Below, in pieces: positions 20,215-28,484 of a DNA stretch of 45,119 nucleotides. Origin of the DNA: a virus. Each line of letters starts with the position of its first letter. Position 1 is the first letter of the stretch. The notes below the pieces were generated by a model. That model did no database searches, was not told the DNA's origin, and worked only from the letters and a program-made list of their open reading frames with translations. Where the stretch lies: positions 1 to 45,119 of the IMG/VR virus record IMGVR_UViG_3300025151_000071. One strand, written 5' to 3'. Position numbers and translations under genes: made by a program.

Positions 20215-20331
20215 TCACCACTTACTTCCAACATTTTTCTTTTCAGCGTATGCTAACTTCCTTCTTTCGGCTTTACGCTCAGTCTTTCCTTTTCTTCTTG
20301 AGATTCTTGCTGCTTTGCTTTTACTAATCAT
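20215..20331 (-). CDS. Basic microprotein (38 aa)
   Basis: 38 residues with about 16 Lys/Arg (KAARISRRKGKTERKAERRK), likely a nucleic-acid-binding helix. The ATG overlaps the stop of the JAMM protease gene (ATGA), with GTGAAGAAGA upstream. Its stop region carries GGTGATTAATA, which serves the next gene. Real coding is likely from coupling; function unknown. Confidence 0.5.
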   Translation of the reverse strand: MISKSKAARISRRKGKTERKAERRKLAYAEKKNVGSKW

Positions 20332-20852
20332 TCTTCTTCACCATCCAAAATATCTTCTGCTACATTTACCCATTCAGGCTTTGCAGGTTGTTCATAGAAT
20401 CCCAAATAACACTTCTTTGAAAGCCCATCATCACAACGATATGCTAAGTATTCTCTATCACCTAATACTATTGCAGACTCCATCAAAGTTTTCCATGTGT
20501 TAATTGTAGACCAATCAGTTCCACTAAAATACGCACTACCAAATGGGTGTGTATGAATCCAACACTTGTAAGGTAATTGCATTCCGTCTAATCCATCTTC
20601 TTGATTTTCAAAGGAAACAAAAGAAGGTGTTCCTACACTAATATACAAGTCATCTTTAGCATCAATCAAAACTTGAATTTCTCTAGGTTTATCGAAAGCC
20701 TCAGTTGATTGCTTCCAAATCTCATCCAAAAATAATTCTGTGATATTACAAGGAAAAACAAATCCTTGCATTAATCCTTTGACCCTATCAAAAGACTCCT
20801 GTATCTTTTCTTTCCAATCTTCATTCTTTATTTCTAATTCTTCAATATTCAT
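20328..20852 (-). CDS. JAMM/MPN metalloprotease (deubiquitinase-like)
   Basis: 174 residues. The JAMM motif is complete: H100-T-H102-P-x6-S110-x2-D113, i.e. H-x-H-x7-S-x2-D, the zinc site of Rpn11/AMSH and prokaryotic JAB peptidases. These enzymes cut after a C-terminal Gly-Gly of ubiquitin-like proteins, either to mature them or remove them from targets. An E1-like protein (21562-22170) and a small Ubl-like protein ending GGY (26732-26932) are in the same transcription unit. A cytosolic Ubl-processing protease is therefore the best reading. The Glu that completes catalysis is expected in the helix or strand before the motif and was not fixed by eye. Confidence 0.8.
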   Translation of the reverse strand: MNIEELEIKNEDWKEKIQESFDRVKGLMQGFVFPCNITELFLDEIWKQSTEAFDKPREIQVLIDAKDDLYISVGTPSFVSFENQEDGLDGMQLPYKCWIHTHPFGSAYFSGTDWSTINTWKTLMESAIVLGDREYLAYRCDDGLSKKCYLGFYEQPAKPEWVNVAEDILDGEEE

Positions 20853-20853
20853 A

Positions 20854-21126
20854 TTATAACATTCCTGTATCTTTTAACAGGAGGAAAACAACACCAACAC
20901 TAGTTATGCCGAGTAATAACATAACTAAACTTGATTTGCTATCTTCTTTTTCGGGATAGGGTATTCCTGTTAGATGACCCCACTTATACAAAACAGAACC
21001 CGCAGTTCTGTTATATCCCATTTTGTTCATTCTTTCTGATACTTCTTCGGGTGTATATCCCCTATTAACAAGCATCATTAACGCTTTTTCTTCTTTGTCT
21101 GACCATAATTTACTCATATCATACAC
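20854..21126 (-). CDS. Myb/SANT-like domain protein with C-terminal membrane anchor
   Basis: 90 residues. LWSDKEEKALMMLVNRGYTPEEVSERM, then YNRTAGSVLYKW, follows the spacing of a Myb/SANT or regulatory-protein HTH domain ('W...Ee..L..L...g.s..eIa..l...R....v...'). Residues 66-84 (SLVMLLLGITSVGVVFLLL) form one membrane span near the C-terminus, so the DNA-binding part would face the cytosol. A tail-anchored DNA-binding protein could tether DNA to the membrane or be a membrane-bound regulator. Overlaps its upstream neighbour. Confidence 0.55.
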   Translation of the reverse strand: MYDMSKLWSDKEEKALMMLVNRGYTPEEVSERMNKMGYNRTAGSVLYKWGHLTGIPYPEKEDSKSSLVMLLLGITSVGVVFLLLKDTGML

Positions 21127-21367
21127 CGCCTACACTATCTAAGTATAAATCCATACTGTTTTCAAATTCGTGAAACGCTTTATGTCCTGCGATAAAACCA
21201 CCTGCATGACGTTTAGTTCCTAGAAATTTTTCACCACAAGCAGGACAAGAAACTTCTACGATTTCCGCTTGAGGATAATAACCATCTGTACAAATTACAT
21301 TAATTATTTCTCCTAAGTCGCCTTCATCTAAATCCTCAATATTCGATTGATGGTTTTCTTCACTCAT
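21119..21367 (-). CDS. C2H2-type zinc finger protein
   Basis: 82 residues from the ATG at 21367. An acidic N-terminal half precedes C-P-A-C-G-E-K-F, 12 residues, then H-x4-H (GHKAFHEF), a single C2H2 finger. The protein ends DSVGGV. The terminal Gly-Gly is notable because a Gly-Gly-processing JAMM protease is encoded two genes away, but the fold is not ubiquitin-like, so this may be chance. Likely DNA- or protein-binding. Confidence 0.6.
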   Translation of the reverse strand: MSEENHQSNIEDLDEGDLGEIINVICTDGYYPQAEIVEVSCPACGEKFLGTKRHAGGFIAGHKAFHEFENSMDLYLDSVGGV

Positions 21368-21368
21368 A

Positions 21369-21434
21369 TCAAACTTCAACCCCTAGCCGTAAAGACTTGA
21401 TATTTAATTTGTATGAATAAATTATACCATTCAT
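21369..21434 (-). CDS. Possible 21-residue micropeptide
   Basis: A 21-codon frame that begins ATGA over the stop of the upstream membrane microprotein and ends two bases before the zinc finger gene. The peptide is basic and mildly hydrophobic (IIYSYKLNIKSLRLGVEV). It may be no more than a leader or coupler. Confidence 0.25.
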   Translation of the reverse strand: MNGIIYSYKLNIKSLRLGVEV

Positions 21435-21562
21435 ATCAAAAACCCAATGAGAAGACCAACGTTCAAGACTAAAGATACTCCTAGCAAACCTGCTAGTCTA
21501 GCGTATTTAGCATACAATTCTTCATATTCTTTCAGTTCACTATTGTTCATGTATCTACCCAT
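21431..21562 (-). CDS. Single-span membrane microprotein (43 aa)
   Basis: 43 residues: a charged N-terminal helix (NNSELKEYEELYAKYARL) then one membrane span (AGLLGVSLVLNVGLLIGFLI) that ends the protein. The ATG overlaps the E1-like gene's stop as TAATG. Position between the E1-like protein, the tail-anchored Myb-like protein and the JAMM protease may link the system to the membrane. Confidence 0.55.
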   Translation of the reverse strand: MGRYMNNSELKEYEELYAKYARLAGLLGVSLVLNVGLLIGFLI

Positions 21563-22170
21563 TATATATTCACCACCTTGTATTCTGCAACGTCATCATT
21601 ATTTACAAACCAACGTTGAATCCATTGTGCGCCCATAGCAGCAATAACCATGTGCATTGTATTGATTTGTTTTCCTGTACCGTTCCAATCACTTGCTTGG
21701 CAAGAAAAACTACCATCTTCACCGTTCAATGCTTCTGTTAGCATATTTTCTTCTGCTTTGTAAGAAAACAATGCTGCATTTCGCCCTTGTGAGCGCAAAT
21801 CTAGCCACTTAACCTTAGCAGCGTTACCAAAGCCTAGTTTGTAGACTAAACGCCTTGTAGCAAGGTTATCTACACAACACACAATCAAGTCAAAATTCTT
21901 TGAAAGTTGGCTTTCGACTAATACATCAAAGGGTTCAGAATTTACACTTCGATATTTATCGGCTAAACAATCACTTTTGTTTCTACCAACATCATCAGGA
22001 CTGTAATTCTGATATCCTAGATTCTTACTTTCTACAACATCTGAATCATAGATTGTAATATCATACAACATTCTTTTTCCACGTTCATATTCATTTGTGT
22101 TTATTCTTGAGAGGAAATCAACCAAATAACTGCCGATTCCCCCTGCTCCTATTATCATTATATTTCTCAT
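21562..22170 (-). CDS. E1/ThiF-like Ubl-activating enzyme
   Basis: 202 residues with a Rossmann-type adenylation domain: G8-A-G-G-I-G-S14 nucleotide loop, Y41-D-S-D44 acidic pair, N50-L-G-Y-Q54, D60-V-G-R-N-K65 and CCVDN (D101), all in the order seen in ThiF/MoeB/E1. In classical E1s the fourth element is N-x-x-R-Q; here the Arg is Tyr. No C-x2-C zinc site is present; C157 in SFSCQASDW is a possible thioester Cys. Such enzymes adenylate the C-terminal Gly of a ThiS/MoaD/ubiquitin-like protein. A GGY-ending candidate and a JAMM protease are in the same operon. No thiamine or molybdopterin genes are seen. Short for the family. Confidence 0.82.
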   Translation of the reverse strand: MRNIMIIGAGGIGSYLVDFLSRINTNEYERGKRMLYDITIYDSDVVESKNLGYQNYSPDDVGRNKSDCLADKYRSVNSEPFDVLVESQLSKNFDLIVCCVDNLATRRLVYKLGFGNAAKVKWLDLRSQGRNAALFSYKAEENMLTEALNGEDGSFSCQASDWNGTGKQINTMHMVIAAMGAQWIQRWFVNNDDVAEYKVVNI

Positions 22171-23048
22171 ACAAATTCCTCTATTTTCATTTTTCTTGCA
22201 TCTCTTTTTTCATATCCCCATGTTTCTACCAACCTATCAGTTGCAGTTCTGATAGATACCTCAGTTGTAGGATAGACTCTTACTATCCCTCGCTGAGTTA
22301 CTTCTTCGTTACCTGTTAGTTCTGAGCAAAGCCAAACACTAGCAGCGATATCAGTTTTAGACATATTTCTGTCTAATGCTTGATATTTTTGATTAACAAT
22401 GTTTACAAAGTTAATACATTGTTCTCTAAAATTACTATCTTTTACATTAAGTAAATCTAAGATAGTTGCAGTTTCTTTGAATACATCAATATTAGAAAAC
22501 ACAAATGATTTTCTAAAGTGTTTTGCACATATTCTAGAAACTCTAACTATGTATTTCATACTTACATCAGTTAGTTTTACGTGTTGTTTGAGACTACAAA
22601 CAATTTCTAAATCTTTAATAAAATAATATGTAATACCTGCTGCCCTTCTTTCTATAGAATAGCCTTGAAGTAATCTAAGATTATCTAATCTCATATACAT
22701 ATTTATGCAGACTTCTCTTTGGCTTTTACTGATTTCATATTCCGATAAAAACATATTAATCAGCGTCTTTGCTTGTTTTTGTGATGAAGTAACTCCCGCA
22801 CCTCTAATTTGATTCATTCTAAAGTTATGTCTTCTACTAGTAGTAGTAGAGTCCGTAGACCAAATGTGTGAACCTAAATATCCATTATCAGGTTGTAAAT
22901 TACTTTGGCCTAAATCATCAAAGAGAATTCTTTTAGTTTCTTCAAATGGGTTGGTCAATATAACTAAACCACATGAATCACAAACCGTTTCACCTAATCT
23001 TTCATCGAAAGAGAATTCATTACCTGAACATTCGGAACATTTATTCAA
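22167..23048 (-). CDS. tfb: Transcription initiation factor B (TFB/TFIIB)
   Basis: 293 residues. The N-terminal zinc ribbon has C4-x2-C7...C23-D-S-C26. It is followed by a B-finger/linker (SHIWSTDSTTTSRRHNFR) and two cyclin-like repeats (AKTLINMFLSEYEISKS...IYYF and TDIAASVWLCSELTG...EVSIRTATDRL). TFB bridges TBP-bound TATA DNA and RNA polymerase in archaea. A virus-encoded TFB would let the virus choose its own promoters; the spaced ACCATATGGT/TATA elements at 33429-36234 are natural targets. It overlaps the E1-like gene (ATGA) and the gene upstream. No TBP is seen here. Confidence 0.9.
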   Translation of the reverse strand: MNKCSECSGNEFSFDERLGETVCDSCGLVILTNPFEETKRILFDDLGQSNLQPDNGYLGSHIWSTDSTTTSRRHNFRMNQIRGAGVTSSQKQAKTLINMFLSEYEISKSQREVCINMYMRLDNLRLLQGYSIERRAAGITYYFIKDLEIVCSLKQHVKLTDVSMKYIVRVSRICAKHFRKSFVFSNIDVFKETATILDLLNVKDSNFREQCINFVNIVNQKYQALDRNMSKTDIAASVWLCSELTGNEEVTQRGIVRVYPTTEVSIRTATDRLVETWGYEKRDARKMKIEEFV

Positions 23049-24375
23049 TGTCCCACCTCATTTCACCGTTCAAATAAGATTCATCTATTCTATATGAAGG
23101 ACTTACAGTTGCGTTCTGAATATGTTCTTTCAATGTATAAACCATATATTCTATACCTGTATTATCATTTAATAGAATTAATGCTCTACTAGCCAATTGG
23201 TCGCCGACACTTGAACCCTGCACGACTGTATCAATACAAATACTTGCCGTCATATAATCCATAGGATATTCTTCAAATGGATATTTTTCTTCAAAATCGT
23301 GTGCGAGTTCGTCAATTTCTTGTTCTGTTAACATTCTATGGACTGCTACAGATTGATGTTGTCCTTTAGTAGAAGTGAATATGTTTCCATCTTCGGTATC
23401 ATTAACATGGTCATATTCTGCTTGTCTCAGAACCACCCAATCACTTAATTCACCCCTAACATACAGTCCGTATGTAGGCATATTGGGAATTTTAATTGGA
23501 TAGAGTCGGTCATTTTGTTTACACAAATCAATAACTAATTGTTTTGCTCTTTCCTGTACCAAATTTTCTGTTCTATTTTGTTTCAACCATTCAACCATTA
23601 ATTGCCGTTGAGCAGAAGTTGGTTCTTCGCCGAATAATTGCTCCCATAACTTTGGAGGGGAAATAAGACTCCATTTCTTAGACTTGGCTTTATTAAATCT
23701 AAAACAATCTATGAACGTATTCAAATCTTTAACTGATATTTCAGCCCACACGTTAGATGATATTTCCAATGCTAATTTGTTCTTAGAAATTCTTCTTGTG
23801 TTTATTTTACACTCCACTTTATGTCCTTCTGAATAGAAATGATAAGGTGTTCTATTTTCTAGAGCATACAAAACATTCGGTGGATAGTTTAGTAGATTGT
23901 CTACATAATCATTCATTTTTTTAGCAGAACGTGTATGTTCTGAATACAACAAAACTTTTGCTATTATTTTAAAGAAGTCGTTCTTTTTAACCGATGTAGA
24001 ATTTATGGAATATCTTGGGTCTTTCATAAGAATGAGGTTACACCTTCCATCTTTATACTTGAAACCGATTTTAGCAAAAAAACCGTCATCTAATTCTTGA
24101 TTATAGTAAGGACTTCTTTTACTGTGCGTTTTCAGTAAACTACGTTGTAAATGTTCTGCTAATATTTCTTCTAAGTAATTATATCCCACACTTCCATTTC
24201 TAAGTCCTATCTCAGATATATTCCAAATATATTCCCCTCTATTATTTAGGTTATTTTTCAAACGCCTACTATTAGAATATCTAGTTGCACTAATTATATT
24301 CCTACCCGTAGTTTTGAATAGGAAACTCATTCTATGATGAGTATGGTTGTCTGATAAATTTAATTTTATTTTCAT
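23041..24375 (-). CDS. Large unknown protein in the E1/TFB cluster
   Basis: About 444 residues from the ATG at 24375 (an earlier in-frame ATG lies deeper in the upstream gene). Basic N-terminal half (MSFLFKTTGRNIISATRYSNSRR), and a more acidic, structured C-terminal half with LYPIKIPNMPTYGLYVRGELSDWVVLRQAEYDH. A helix-rich end follows (HRMLTEQEIDELAHDFEEKYP). No P-loop, nuclease or zinc motif is obvious. Overlaps TFB by eight bases. Because it sits between the E1-like protein/TFB pair and the RNR, it might be a partner of either, but nothing in the sequence decides. Confidence 0.6.
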   Translation of the reverse strand: MKIKLNLSDNHTHHRMSFLFKTTGRNIISATRYSNSRRLKNNLNNRGEYIWNISEIGLRNGSVGYNYLEEILAEHLQRSLLKTHSKRSPYYNQELDDGFFAKIGFKYKDGRCNLILMKDPRYSINSTSVKKNDFFKIIAKVLLYSEHTRSAKKMNDYVDNLLNYPPNVLYALENRTPYHFYSEGHKVECKINTRRISKNKLALEISSNVWAEISVKDLNTFIDCFRFNKAKSKKWSLISPPKLWEQLFGEEPTSAQRQLMVEWLKQNRTENLVQERAKQLVIDLCKQNDRLYPIKIPNMPTYGLYVRGELSDWVVLRQAEYDHVNDTEDGNIFTSTKGQHQSVAVHRMLTEQEIDELAHDFEEKYPFEEYPMDYMTASICIDTVVQGSSVGDQLASRALILLNDNTGIEYMVYTLKEHIQNATVSPSYRIDESYLNGEMRWDIE

Positions 24376-24724
24376 ATTCTTCACTTTCTCCATTTTTATA
24401 ATAATAATTTCTACGTTGTATTAGGTTACGTAGACCCCTTCTTTTTTTATTTACATCATCGTGATATCTTTCGTCTCCTTTAGGAACGTTAGCAAACACA
24501 AGGTCTAACGCAACCCCTTTAGACAATAGATTAATCCCTTCATCTGCGCTATATCTTTTACGATATACGCTTTCACATATTCTATCTATAAGATGTTGTG
24601 AATGGCGTTGGCTATAGTTACTATAAACTTCTTTAATAGTAGATTCAGGGATGTTTTGTGTCTGAAAAATCAGAAACTCATGTATTATGTGAAATTCCTC
24701 AGATTTCACACGCTCCGCCTGCAC
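24332..24724 (-). CDS. Unknown protein, about 130 aa
   Basis: Basic, helical protein (SNYSQRHSQHLIDRICESVYRKRY; NKKRRGLRNLIQRRNYYYK). The start is uncertain: the GTG at 24724 has GGGAGAG seven bases upstream, within the end of the RNR gene, while an in-frame TTG six bases earlier is poorly placed. The C-terminus runs over the start of the next gene by about 44 bases. No recognised family. Confidence 0.5.
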   Translation of the reverse strand: MQAERVKSEEFHIIHEFLIFQTQNIPESTIKEVYSNYSQRHSQHLIDRICESVYRKRYSADEGINLLSKGVALDLVFANVPKGDERYHDDVNKKRRGLRNLIQRRNYYYKNGESEEYENKIKFIRQPYSS

Positions 24725-26567
24725 AAGCAATCTCTCCCTGTAGTGTTGTATTATCAGTCAGTTCTACTATCTTAGTTAAATCTATTTCCTTTAACAAAGG
24801 AAGTAGTTTTTTGTAATCTTCTTTTGATATTTCTTCAAAGGGTGCTTGAGCATATAATCCGCCGTCATAAGGTAAAACAGATAGACCATTGTAGATATCT
24901 CTATTGTCCCAAAGCCATCTTCCGACCATATCCCATTCACCATCTTTTACATTTATTGTTGCAGACACATTATGAGTGTTAAATCCTTTAACATGACCCT
25001 TCTTTACCCACGATTGGCTAAATAATTTTACCCTTTCTAGCATTTCTAAGGTAGATTCTTCTCTTGTTATCGCTCCTTTAGGCGATTTCTGTGGAATAGA
25101 GATAACTGCTTGATTTCCTCCCATAACACAATCTTCTACTAAGTCAGGTAAGTTAGTTTTGAGATATTCATAGATAGGTTCAGATTTCAAAACTCTAATT
25201 CTTCTGATGTAGTATTCTGAATGCCAAGAGTGTATTCCTGATGAAGTTCCTAGCACTAAACTAGTAGTTCCCGCAGGTTTTACACAAGTTGTGCGAGCAG
25301 CAGAATTTATTCCTAATCTATTGGCCCACAAGTGGTTTGTACCAACAACAACATTAGACATTTCTTTTAGTTCTGATTCAGACCACTCTTTACTAGCAAT
25401 ACCCGTCATTGATACACCAATGAGTGCATCTTTTTCTGTGGTCATTTTCCAAATAGGTCTTAGATAATGAAAATCTGTGTATGATGCCTGTAATGTTCCT
25501 AAAATAGTAGCAGCAGATACTCTACCCTTCAAATCTTCATGTGATTCAATGTTTGAAGCATTGATTTCAGTAAGATTGCAAAACTGATAAGGTCTAAGAG
25601 CAATCTCACAACAAGGATTAGTTCCCCAATCAATATCGTTAGTTAGATAAAAGGCAGGTTCTCCTGTGCCTGATTCAGCAATATTATTCCAAATATTATG
25701 GAATGCTTCTTTCTTAGAATCATCTTTTTCTAAATCATTTCTAAGGAAAACTGCTGAGTTATTCGCTCTCATCCTTTGAGGATTCTCATTCCAAAATTCA
25801 CCATCTTTACAATGAAGCATTAATTCATCATCAGGACTAAACAAAGAAATCATTGCTGCTCTACGAATACCACCTGCTAATACTGCATCAGCAATATAAC
25901 ACATGATATCGTGGCATTGTAACGATGTTAATTGTTTATTATCACTTGCAACTGATTGTAAAATCGCTTCAATATTATTGATACAATCTTCTAACACTTT
26001 TGGATTTGGTGAGCGACCACCACTAGTTTTCAAAAGAGAACCTTCGGGTCTGATATCTCTATAATCGAATTTTAATCTATTTCCTCCAATAACATAGGAA
26101 TTTATCAATTCGTAAATCGCATCAGCCCATCCTTCAATTGAATCCTGAATTTTATATCTCACTTTGATATATGAACGCTCTTTAAGAAAAGGTAATTTGT
26201 TTATGTGATGTTTTTGAACAGAATAACCAACTCCTGTTCCACCTAATAACAAAAACATTGCTTCTGAAAAAGAACGTATAGAATCAATTGGCATATATGC
26301 ACAATTGTACACTCTATTAGGAGATAAATCAATTGCTTTACCTGCAAATTGCATAGAGCGCATTGATGGTAGGACTTTCTTTGGTAGCACATAATTGATA
26401 TAAACATCTGATATTTCTTGTCTAAATTCAGGGAATTTTTCTATGTGCATCTGCATATTTCTTGATACGATTTCAGGCCAAGTTTCTCTACGTTGCTTGT
26501 TTGAATCGTATTTTGAGTATTTCATATAAGTTGTAATGTCTGATAGTATTTCTTGTTGTATTTCCAT
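24699..26567 (-). CDS. nrdJ: Adenosylcobalamin-dependent (class II) ribonucleotide reductase
   Basis: 622 residues from the ATG at 26567, preceded by GGTGATTAAC; the frame is open further up but through a structured leader. Recognisable RNR signatures are RVYNCAYMPID (first redox Cys), LLLGGTGVGYSVQ, NPCCEIALRPYQFCNL with the N-x-C-x-E active site, VKPAGTTSLVLGT and the C-terminal thiol pair C-A-G-G-A-C-E-I. Single-chain layout is like the monomeric B12-dependent triphosphate reductase; no R2 or activase gene is present. It makes deoxynucleotides for virus DNA synthesis and implies B12 supply in the host's habitat. Confidence 0.85.
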   Translation of the reverse strand: MEIQQEILSDITTYMKYSKYDSNKQRRETWPEIVSRNMQMHIEKFPEFRQEISDVYINYVLPKKVLPSMRSMQFAGKAIDLSPNRVYNCAYMPIDSIRSFSEAMFLLLGGTGVGYSVQKHHINKLPFLKERSYIKVRYKIQDSIEGWADAIYELINSYVIGGNRLKFDYRDIRPEGSLLKTSGGRSPNPKVLEDCINNIEAILQSVASDNKQLTSLQCHDIMCYIADAVLAGGIRRAAMISLFSPDDELMLHCKDGEFWNENPQRMRANNSAVFLRNDLEKDDSKKEAFHNIWNNIAESGTGEPAFYLTNDIDWGTNPCCEIALRPYQFCNLTEINASNIESHEDLKGRVSAATILGTLQASYTDFHYLRPIWKMTTEKDALIGVSMTGIASKEWSESELKEMSNVVVGTNHLWANRLGINSAARTTCVKPAGTTSLVLGTSSGIHSWHSEYYIRRIRVLKSEPIYEYLKTNLPDLVEDCVMGGNQAVISIPQKSPKGAITREESTLEMLERVKLFSQSWVKKGHVKGFNTHNVSATINVKDGEWDMVGRWLWDNRDIYNGLSVLPYDGGLYAQAPFEEISKEDYKKLLPLLKEIDLTKIVELTDNTTLQGEIACAGGACEI

Positions 26568-26571
26568 GTTA

Positions 26572-26731
26572 ATCACCGAAAGAAGTGGGCCTCTCACCCA
26601 CCCGCCGAATATTTCCCTCCGGTGGGATTTGCTACACGCTAGAGTAAGCATATAGTGATAAGGGCGATAGATAAAATAGGGGTTAATTCATCTATCGCTT
26701 TACGTATTTCCGATAGGATTGTTTGTGGAGT
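26572..26731 (-). promoter_or_regulatory. Structured leader upstream of the RNR gene
   Basis: 160 bases with no convincing gene. A 9-bp perfect stem GCGATAGAT/ATCTATCGC (26664-26672 with 26690-26698) is followed toward the RNR by a G+C-rich patch. There CCCACC (26597-26602) can pair either with GGTGGG (26621-26626) or with GTGGG (26585-26589), so two hairpins exclude each other. The second lies beside the GGTGAT site of the RNR gene. This looks like a control element, but no known riboswitch core, including cobalamin, is recognised. The RNR frame stays open through it, so an N-terminal extension cannot be fully excluded. Confidence 0.45.
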
Positions 26732-26932
26732 TCAATATCCACCGACAACTGCCGGAACTAGGTTTACGGATTCTACTGAATCCCACTCAACCGATGTAAT
26801 GTTTTCTCTTGAAGTAAAAGCACCATCAACGAAAACCCAATGTGTCGGGTGGTCGTTAATTTGGTCAATTACTTCACTTTCTGTTACAGTCAGTTGCGTG
26901 TGTCCTGTTTCGTTCAATATATTCAATATCAT
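26732..26932 (-). CDS. ThiS/MoaD/SAMP-like ubiquitin-like protein with GGY tail
   Basis: 66 residues, the same length as many ThiS proteins. Predicted order is beta (MILNIL), beta (HTQLTV), helix (ESEVIDQIND), beta (HWVFVDGAF), the SRENI turn and a final strand SVESVNLVPAVVGGY. The 'V-V-D/N-G-x-x-x-x-R-E' turn and the 'V-x-L-x-P-x-V-x-G-G' end are the hallmarks of MoaD/ThiS/SAMP beta-grasp proteins. G64-G65 would be the activated end; Y66 must be removed first, a job suited to the JAMM protease at 20328. AGGTGA precedes the ATG. Sulfur carrier or protein modifier cannot be told apart here. Confidence 0.68.
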   Translation of the reverse strand: MILNILNETGHTQLTVTESEVIDQINDHPTHWVFVDGAFTSRENITSVEWDSVESVNLVPAVVGGY

Positions 26933-27205: not shown

Positions 27206-28261
27206 TTACTCACCCGTAATATGTCTCCTGTGTCTTTCAATCTCAGCAGGAGTTAGTATTTCAAAAAGTTTTTGCACTTGTTTTTCAGATAGAGGCTTTG
27301 CCTCGATGATTTGTCTCTTGATAGTTGTAAGAAAACCATGTTCCCATCCTCTAACTAGATTAGTATCAAAAATTGGTAAATCAAAGTATTCACAATTCTT
27401 CAAAAACGTGTAATTGCGAGCCACTTCTGAATTCCATTCTTTGAATCCATCTTTTCTAGCCAAAGATAATTGTTCAAATCTTCTTTCTAACATTTTATCT
27501 TCAAGTTTGAATTTATCTACATAATTATTCAATCTCATTATGAAAATACCTATGTCCTCAAGAAGTCTATCATTAGGAAATCCTCTTGTGTGAATTTGAG
27601 CCTTTGGATTATCGGGATGATTCCATCTCCAAACAATAGAAGCCATTTGATATTCAGGAGAGAATTTTTCTCCTTTACTTGATTTACGAATTCTAGTAAT
27701 GGGGCGCACAAGTTCTAGCGTATCATCGTAATATGTTTTACCTGTATGATTAACATTAATTCTCAAATCCATATCCTTAATCCTGTTGAAATCTTCTTCA
27801 AATTCTTCACCATGTTCTTCCCACCAAGCATCACGAATCAAAGATTTAACCATCTGTTGTTTCCATTCTTCGATATCTTTTTCTGTAATAGTGTTGATAT
27901 CAACTCCTTCGTTTTCACTAAGATGACGTAACACCATCCAATTATTAACACAACTTGAACCGACAATTTCTCTAGTATTGTTTAGTGTGTTTTCAATTTC
28001 AAAGTGATAAACAATAGGATGACCACATAAGCACTTGTTAGGATGACCTGATGGATGATTCAAGATGTATTGATTTCGTGATTGAAAACCATTTCTTTGA
28101 ATTGCTTGTCTCCAAACCTTTCCGGTTACTCTCCATTCTTTCTTTGCTTCTTCATAATCATCTGCAACAGATAAATTAAGTAATTTATCAGTTAATCTAG
28201 GATAATTACCAAAAACAAACTCATCTAAATCATCATATTCTGCTTCAAAATCAGTCATCAT
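27206..28261 (-). CDS. Treble-clef zinc finger protein, 351 aa
   Basis: Start is at the ATGATG around 28261, overlapping the previous stop. Residues about 65-105 have K-C-L-C-G-H...YHFEIEN...G-S-S-C, a treble-clef-like zinc site (CxCG, then GxxC) common in phage proteins of unknown role. A helical region with W residues follows (WKQQMVKSLIRDAWWEEHGEEF), then a C-terminal helical domain ending LTPAEIERHRRH. Perhaps DNA- or RNA-binding. Confidence 0.6.
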   Translation of the reverse strand: MMTDFEAEYDDLDEFVFGNYPRLTDKLLNLSVADDYEEAKKEWRVTGKVWRQAIQRNGFQSRNQYILNHPSGHPNKCLCGHPIVYHFEIENTLNNTREIVGSSCVNNWMVLRHLSENEGVDINTITEKDIEEWKQQMVKSLIRDAWWEEHGEEFEEDFNRIKDMDLRINVNHTGKTYYDDTLELVRPITRIRKSSKGEKFSPEYQMASIVWRWNHPDNPKAQIHTRGFPNDRLLEDIGIFIMRLNNYVDKFKLEDKMLERRFEQLSLARKDGFKEWNSEVARNYTFLKNCEYFDLPIFDTNLVRGWEHGFLTTIKRQIIEAKPLSEKQVQKLFEILTPAEIERHRRHITGE

Positions 28262-28484
28262 TATCCATCCTTTCAAACGCCCGTTGTTCAGCAAGATGAC
28301 CTTGTAACAATTCATTCAATTTACCATGTAGTGCTTCGGCGCAACCTGCAATGAGATTACGATTTAGACACAACCAAATCTTATGTTTGTTATTAAGAAC
28401 AACCTTCGGGCTATCATTTTCATCCATTGTAATTACAATAGGAGGCATTTCTTCTTCATCAATCAACCTAAATTCTACATCCAT
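28251..28484 (-). CDS. Unknown protein, 77 aa
   Basis: Starts at the ATG overlapping the upstream stop as TGATG. Beta-rich acidic N-terminal half (VEFRLIDEEEMPPIVITMDEND) and a helical C-terminal half (LIAGCAEALHGKLNELLQGHL). No recognised motif. Confidence 0.52.
   Translation of the reverse strand: MDVEFRLIDEEEMPPIVITMDENDSPKVVLNNKHKIWLCLNRNLIAGCAEALHGKLNELLQGHLAEQRAFERMDNDD

Follow-up and report, generated by a model that had tools for sequence, protein, structure and literature searches.

A predicted ubiquitin-like conjugation module in the genomes of magrovirus-like viruses

Operons that combine genes for a ubiquitin-like modifier (Ubl), an E1 activating enzyme, an E2 transfer enzyme and a JAB metalloprotease are known from bacteria, and have been described as type 6d (Iyer et al., 2006; PMC1779556). 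This type likely corresponds to the PRTRC cassette, as the 'Ppro' of that report fits Pelobacter propionicus, whose plasmid carries PRTRC genes in the present comparison. In the PRTRC cassette the Ubl is PRTRC-C, the E2 is PRTRC-B, the JAB protease is PRTRC-A and the E1 is PRTRC-ThiF, accompanied by the alpha-helical protein PRTRC-F. Bacterial ubiquitin-like cassettes have been read as defence systems (Bil, CBASS) or as plasmid functions. Here we describe a matching set in the 45,119-base virus record IMGVR_UViG_3300025151_000071, referred to as the window, the positions of which are used throughout. The set consists of a Ubl, an E1-like enzyme, a JAMM metalloprotease and a 450-amino-acid protein with one invariant cysteine. 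The first three had been recognized in an original prediction made from this DNA as a virus-encoded Ubl, E1 and JAMM module lying on one strand (minus) in one arm of the genome, a view supported by fold prediction, conservation of catalytic sites, purifying selection and absolute linkage of the genes. The module is probably a virus-encoded system for reversible ubiquitin-like conjugation with JAMM processing that belongs to the core of magrovirus-like genomes. The strongest additions to what had been predicted are this core status and the fourth, cysteine-bearing member.

The modifier is a protein of 66 amino acids encoded at 26732..26932 on the minus strand. As predicted from the open reading frame and confirmed codon by codon in the DNA, its C-terminus reads V62-V63-G64-G65-Y66, with the Gly-Gly codons at 26738-26743 and the Tyr66 codon at 26735-26737. 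The window Ubl has no match in Pfam, NCBIfam or PHROGs, a sequence search of the PDB gave no credible match, and no close relative of this protein or of the 450-amino-acid protein was found in INPHARED. Structure prediction with AlphaFold2, based on a 14-sequence alignment, yields the beta-grasp fold that the original prediction had proposed to look for (order of elements E-E-H-E-E-H-E), with a mean predicted local distance difference test score (pLDDT) of 88.4 and values below 50 in the final three residues only. When this model is compared with the PDB by Foldseek, ubiquitin tops the list (probability 0.99, E about 0.006), and NEDD8, SUMO and MoaD-type proteins rank lower. By its predicted fold and C-terminal Gly-Gly, the 66-residue protein would thus belong to the ubiquitin-like beta-grasp modifiers. 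The Gly-Gly is invariant in 83 of 83 distinct sequences, whereas the tyrosine that masks it in the window is not a fixed trait: the Gly-Gly is terminal in 5 of the 83 and followed by one to three residues, very varied in type, in the other 78. Such variability behind an invariant Gly-Gly would be expected of a tail that is cut off. Ubls of this family contain between zero and two lysines, mostly K2, and the window copy contains none, so chains built on internal lysines seem unlikely.

The E1-like enzyme, of 202 amino acids and with a ThiF fold, is encoded at 21562..22170 (minus strand). Its adenylation signatures, already noted in the original prediction, are supported by a match to Pfam ThiF over the family cut-off (E=1.3e-18) and by residues that are each kept in 106 of 106 sequences, namely G8, G10, G11 and G13 of the GxGGxG motif, D42, D44, N50, Q54, K65, D101 and C157. 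The last of these (codon 21700-21702) is the candidate catalytic cysteine. Among the NCBIfam models, PRTRC_ThiF scores best with 65.6 bits (family cut-off 144.75), as compared with 41.5 for ThiF and 28.8 for UbaA (NF047750, cut-off 450), and PRTRC_ThiF is matched by all 32 E1 members scanned. Moreover, the hhalign alignment of the viral E1s with 12 PRTRC E1s (99.4% probability, E=1.2e-21, 175 columns) spans the cysteine region, in which SFSCQ of the viral enzymes stands against PSCS of the PRTRC enzymes. Judged by sequence, the viral enzyme appears closest to the E1 of bacterial PRTRC cassettes and not to the UbaA type of SAMP systems. Hits on the E1-E2 models of PADLOC are partial and confined to the nucleotide site. 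The ThiF folds MccB and PaaA are among the PDB matches of the enzyme, which would be in line with adenylation of a small molecule or peptide (MccB-like) or with some other use of a ThiF enzyme that involves no Ubl; as a matched Gly-Gly-ended Ubl and a JAMM protease are always encoded alongside, such chemistry is barely credible here.

Affinity to ThiF also raises the question of sulfur chemistry, in which a thiocarboxylated Ubl would deliver sulfur for tRNA thiolation or for a cofactor and the JAMM protein would act as a maturing protease only, as in ThiS, MoaD and CysO/Mec+ systems. The original prediction had listed ThiS/MoaD/SAMP hallmarks in the Ubl. These are present to the extent that Pfam ThiS is weakly matched by 5 of 14 Ubl relatives (best E 8e-4), while the E1 scores best against PRTRC_ThiF and not against ThiF or UbaA. 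Archaeal Ubls often have both roles, according to PMC2948915 and PMC5349211, and the E1 is ThiF-like. Nevertheless, sulfur delivery is unlikely to be the function of the module. The sulfur-carrier models score below PRTRC_ThiF on the window E1, the cysteines of this enzyme are C98, C99 and C157 with neither CxxC zinc pairs nor a rhodanese domain, and the 450-amino-acid protein with its invariant cysteine and predicted E2-like topology is always there. In addition, in agreement with what had been remarked for biosynthesis genes in the original prediction, searches of the window proteins against family libraries revealed no gene for thiamine, molybdopterin or cysteine biosynthesis, cysteine synthase, sulfurtransferase, rhodanese or tRNA thiolation. 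A 202-amino-acid E1 without a rhodanese domain, together with the lack of thiamine, molybdopterin and cysteine biosynthesis genes in these searches of the window, argues for conjugation. Among the functions proposed at the outset, tagging of proteins fits best and sulfur supply least.

The third component is a JAMM/MPN+ metalloprotease of 174 amino acids encoded at 20328..20852 (minus strand). The complete motif announced for this protein, H100-T-H102-PFGSAYF-S110-GT-D113 (H-x-H-x7-S-x2-D), lies at 20514-20555, and E58, H100, H102, S110 and D113 are each kept in 110 of 110 sequences. The window protein falls under the cut-off of Pfam Prok-JAB (E=0.002), which is matched by all 32 relatives scanned, and PDB matches of the JAMM profile include AMSH-like deubiquitinases and an Rpn11-like protein from an archaeon. 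WD40 matches of the same profile were rejected as a chance repeat match, every stretch of which is insignificant. The protein ends in an acidic EEE tail, and an EEE or GEE end is present in 97 of the 110 copies. Pairing of a Ubl with a JAB domain is also found in virion assembly, since the Ubl-like TAPI and the JAB-bearing TAPK tail proteins are encoded by adjacent genes in lambdoid phages (PMC1779556). However, the lambda cluster as given in that report has no E1, no tail or virion family match was obtained in or beside the viral module, and the genes surrounding the module serve replication and transcription, which makes a comparable assembly role very improbable.

The virus itself is magrovirus-like, as assigned by gene content. 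Magroviruses infect marine Poseidoniales archaea and are covered, with the family Aoguangviridae, by a description of the International Committee on Taxonomy of Viruses (PMC10768690; see also PMC12999244). The window genome has two divergent gene arms with 31-37% G+C, and searches of family libraries identified a family-B polymerase split at the palm domain, an ATP-dependent ligase, a UvrD-like helicase and a PD-(D/E)XK nuclease, as well as the transcription factor TFB and a B12-dependent ribonucleotide reductase (RNR). All of the Magrovirales traits compared with PMC10768690 (split family-B polymerase, ATP-dependent ligase, superfamily 1 helicase, TFB, two divergent arms and low G+C) are found in the window. 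Marine Poseidoniales archaea are thus probably the hosts of this virus. Promoter-like sites of the sigma-70 type occur in the window at chance level only, in a scan ill suited to archaea.

Conservation of the module was assessed by scanning IMG/VR with the Ubl, the E1, the JAMM protein and the 450-amino-acid protein. A single-sequence query confirmed 38 Ubl loci, and alignments recovered 302 stretches for the E1 and 178 for the 450-amino-acid protein, of which 80 loci each were kept. In every locus that holds the four genes and TFB (152 of 152; the loci overlap), the order on a single strand is Ubl, 450-amino-acid protein, TFB, E1 and JAMM, which confirms the linkage of E1 and JAMM to the Ubl that the original prediction depended on. 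With TFB left aside, the four genes are found together in 153 loci, which represent 91 distinct sequence sets, and no intact module lacks the 450-amino-acid protein, not even the most divergent, L215. To make the sample independent of the module, 13 contigs of 55-99 kb were picked by their polymerase. The E1, JAMM and 450-amino-acid genes are present once each in 12 of them and the Ubl in 11. The contig in which only the Ubl is missing ends about 1.3 kb past the 450-amino-acid gene, short of the expected place of the Ubl, and in the contig that has no module gene the polymerase lies 3.6 kb from the end on the module side. The module is therefore present wherever contigs cover the region and, on this genomic evidence, is a core gene set of magrovirus-like viruses and not an accessory trait. 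Purifying selection acts on all four genes, with median ratios of nonsynonymous to synonymous substitution (dN/dS) of about 0.10 for the Ubl, 0.10 for the E1, 0.08 for the JAMM protein and 0.14 for the 450-amino-acid protein. A scan of GTDB with the Ubl identified three contigs only (L213, L214 and L215), all from one bacterial metagenome-assembled genome, 'Altibacter sp.' EAC109. These contigs hold either the module or only the Ubl. Because several of the EAC109 contigs bear other module genes, they are read as misbinned virus, and the three are probably magrovirus contigs that were binned with the wrong organism.

These conservation data bear on a further possibility, i.e., that the module counters a host defence based on SAMP or Bil/CBASS-like tagging, with the JAMM protease stripping host tags and the viral Ubl and E1 competing with or poisoning the host pathway. 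Hosts are known to defend themselves by ubiquitin-like tagging of phage parts (Hor et al., 2024, as cited in PMC12660748), and the latter paper reports that archaeal Borgs carry many deSAMPylases and one of them a SAMP, which its authors consider a possible answer to host tagging. However, removal of tags would not need a complete set that includes a Ubl and an E1, is linked in all cases and evolves slowly, and genes related to defence tend to be patchy in occurrence and quick to evolve, whereas this module is core. Counter-defence as its purpose is therefore rather unlikely, but would be compatible with the conjugation system favoured here because the conjugation chemistry would be identical.

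The fourth member, encoded at 23041..24393 on the minus strand, is a candidate E2-like transfer enzyme. The original prediction had mentioned a 444-residue protein beside the trio. Its position in one cluster with TFB holds, but it has 450 amino acids when counted from the first ATG (444 from a later ATG) and is a fixed member of the module, no bystander. C386 (codon 23236-23238), in an x-x-I-C-I-D motif, is invariant in 107 of 107 sequences and is the only cysteine of the protein to be so. In most relatives the motif is G-P-I-C-I-D-N, which is E2-like, whereas the window protein has T-A-S-I-C-I-D-T. Modelled with AlphaFold2, the protein has a pLDDT of 76, lower in the C-terminal third, where a helix (275-293), four strands (297-301, 308-313, 318-323 and 349-354), the loop that carries C386 and a second helix (396-408) are predicted. 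The order of these elements is that of an E2 domain, in a region modelled with moderate confidence, and the distance to the cysteine is likewise E2-like where relatives have short loops. In an hhalign comparison with three human E2s, the viral cysteine falls on the E2 cysteine in a weak match that is the best of 12 comparisons (p=0.017; range of the hhalign comparisons with E2s 0.017-0.2); with larger E2 sets the statistic becomes weaker and C386 is still aligned on the E2 cysteine. The profile of the protein gives no significant match to PRTRC-B (PF14460), PRTRC-F, the Cap2-type E2 or crAss-phage proteins, and three unnamed viral homologues are present in BFVD. One in-frame TAA interrupts the gene match at G159:C1:62330-63538, probably because of an assembly error, the end of a frame or damage to this copy. 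On balance, the case for and against an E2-like enzyme is about even.

The nature of the parts, their conservation, their linkage and the selection on them were read from the genomes and models directly, and from them we infer a conjugation chemistry that could proceed in five steps. First, the JAMM protease would trim the one- to three-residue tail of the Ubl and expose Gly65, a need suggested by the invariant Gly-Gly behind a variable tail. The E1 would then adenylate Gly65 with ATP and form a thioester on C157, as suggested by its conserved nucleotide site and by an invariant cysteine in the region of the conserved cysteine of PRTRC E1s. From there the Ubl might be passed to C386 of the 450-amino-acid protein, acting as an E2-like or as a combined transfer and target-binding enzyme, a step for which the chances are evenly poised; alternatively, it would go straight to the targets. 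The Ubl would be joined to targets mostly singly, since it is almost devoid of lysines. Finally, the JAMM protease would take the Ubl off the targets and recycle it. Because the genes sit together with TFB, RNR, helicase, ligase and polymerase, a first guess at the targets would be information-processing proteins of host or virus that are produced or encountered early in infection. A TATA-binding protein of Haloferax is turned over by the proteasome as a result of SAMP tagging (PMC4895103); control of this kind is thus possible in archaea, although the case says nothing direct on the present virus. A bolder version, tentative and with somewhat less than an even chance of being right, is that magroviruses have a full Ubl-E1-E2-deubiquitinase cascade in their core genome, that the 450-amino-acid protein represents a new E2 lineage, strongly diverged and joined to an N-terminal region that binds targets, and that the cascade tags host transcription or replication proteins in lytic infection of marine archaea.

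Several observations weigh against conjugation, or against parts of it. The arginine position of the NxxRQ motif of the E1 is occupied by tyrosine in 102 of 106 sequences, whereas PRTRC E1s retain the arginine; by MoeB numbering this position would correspond to R73 of MoeB, an ATP-contacting arginine (PMC12355090). R106, R126 and R130 are invariant in the viral E1s, so that an arginine may be supplied from elsewhere, or the activity may be altered. Membership in the fold stands, and activity of the E1 should not be taken for granted from its sequence. The Foldseek E-values of the Ubl are modest (about 0.006), as expected at 66 residues, and no E3 was identified. The 450-amino-acid protein has no match in sequence searches of Pfam, PHROGs, NCBIfam, PADLOC or the PDB. 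Foldseek comparison of its model with the PDB is not significant, and a few weak chains containing RWD, a catalytically dead version of the E2 fold, appear amid noise. Membership in the E2 family is thus unproven by sequence or fold search, the model is only moderately confident in the relevant region, and the protein is not filed as an E2 here. In support of conjugation, on the other hand, bacteria are known to keep Ubl, E1, E2 and JAB genes together in one operon (type 6d in PMC1779556; plasmid loci).

Other genes lie between or beside those of the module. The TFB homologue (22167..23048, minus strand; Pfam Zn_Ribbon_TF 1.4e-7, TFB model 5e-14), located between the 450-amino-acid gene and the E1, is linked in nearly all loci and absent from the divergent locus L215. 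Between the E1 and JAMM genes, 21119..21379 (minus strand) encodes an 86-amino-acid protein with a single zinc finger, CPxCGEEFLGTKRHAGGFIAGH-x3-H, which is very strongly conserved in the alignment of relatives, about half of which have the gene; this protein could bind targets or the modifier. A 90-amino-acid protein (20854..21126, minus strand; Pfam Myb_DNA-bind_4 E=2e-4, under cut-off), Myb/SANT-like and with a hydrophobic stretch at its C-terminus, is encoded next to the JAMM gene in some relatives as well. The B12-dependent RNR (24699..26651, minus strand; TIGR02505 1.8e-75, phrog_367 4e-128) separates the Ubl from the 450-amino-acid gene and is considered a neighbour that is not thought to be part of the Ubl pathway. 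Directly upstream of the Ubl, as in nearly all relatives, 27206-28315 encodes a 369-amino-acid protein with no family match and a zinc-ligand-like CLCGHPI...VGSSCVNNW motif; a DWNN match of this protein (E=0.15) was dismissed. Matches to PDC-S64/S58 and GajA were also dismissed as weak.

No mention of such genes was found in the magrovirus literature compared (including PMC10768690 and PMC12999244), a comparison outside which Philosof 2017, Zhou 2023 and Prabhu 2025 lie; single genes of the module may possibly have been annotated before as ThiF-like. The set is near-universal and conserved in abundant lytic viruses of ocean archaea, which suggests a viral kit that labels host or viral proteins during infection. 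If it conjugates, this would be a prokaryotic virus that brings its own complete modifier pathway. It would then become possible to ask how magroviruses take over cells that cannot be cultivated, and would bear on the spread of E1-E2-Ubl systems among bacteria, archaea, plasmids and viruses. Since the proteins of the module are small and look soluble, they can be tested in purified form, without culturing host or virus.

Among the described systems, the haloarchaeal SAMP pathway (SAMP1/2, UbaA and HvJAMM1/2) shares with the viral module a beta-grasp Gly-Gly modifier, a small E1 without a separate cysteine domain, a JAMM desampylase and an archaeal setting (PMC4895103). In contrast, its components are host genes, no E2 is needed (PMC11354881), UbaA matches the viral E1 less well than PRTRC_ThiF does, and most viral Ubls mask their Gly-Gly. 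Bil (BilABCD) and CBASS (Cap2/Cap3) resemble the module in that a Ubl or tag, E1, E2 and JAB are encoded in one operon and the JAB protein processes the tag (PMC11354881), and differ from it in that they belong to host defence, that two Ubl domains are present in BilA and that Cap2 is an E1-E2 fusion. Borgs, which like the viruses are mobile elements of archaea, carry JAMM deSAMPylases, and the Lilac Borg has a SAMP; in the passages of PMC12660748 compared, however, the E1 is placed in the host genome, the JAMM copies are many and divergent, and no fixed four-gene module is described. In bacterial tailed phages, namely crAss-like phages and Burkholderia phage BgVeeders33, the E1 and JAB genes are adjacent, and the E1 of the crAss-like phages is hit by the profile of the viral E1s (E=3.5e-22), but the partner proteins are others and no matching Ubl was found there. 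The BgVeeders33 locus (L304:662-4199) is a near-complete PRTRC cassette with an alpha-helical protein, Prok-E2_D (2e-39), JAB (5e-19) and E1. In phage cr106_1 (L302:1976-6405) and bajarodcaudo virus 1 (L305:2358-6421), the crAss-like E1 stands beside a Prok-JAB metalloprotease, a ~250-amino-acid protein and a ~434-amino-acid protein. The ~434-amino-acid protein contains an HSH...PC-T-G stretch reminiscent of an E2 active site, and its homologues occur in 45 phage records, including the cultured crAss001. Xanthomonas phage PhiXhv-12 (L303:2241-5615) encodes, just before a ThiF/E1 gene, an 892-amino-acid protein with a Cys-rich tail and an IHPH...GSLCLGSF stretch resembling the E2 active-site motif; when the whole protein is compared with E2s by profile, no significant match results. 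The PRTRC cassette has an equal set of parts on one strand, with a small Ubl of similar length and with JAB and E1 as separate proteins, and its E1s align with the viral ones lengthwise, cysteine region included (99.4%). Unlike PRTRC-C, which ends in G-x-K-G, the viral Ubl ends in V-G-G-x and the two do not align; hhalign comparisons are not significant for the viral Ubl, the 450-amino-acid protein (against PRTRC-B, PF14460) and the JAMM protein; no Pfam or NCBIfam match to PRTRC-B, PRTRC-C, PRTRC-E, PRTRC-F or ParB was obtained in the viral module; and TFB and RNR are interleaved, in an archaeal virus instead of a bacterial plasmid. The viral module would therefore work like a PRTRC cassette, while being kept apart from the PRTRC type in classification.

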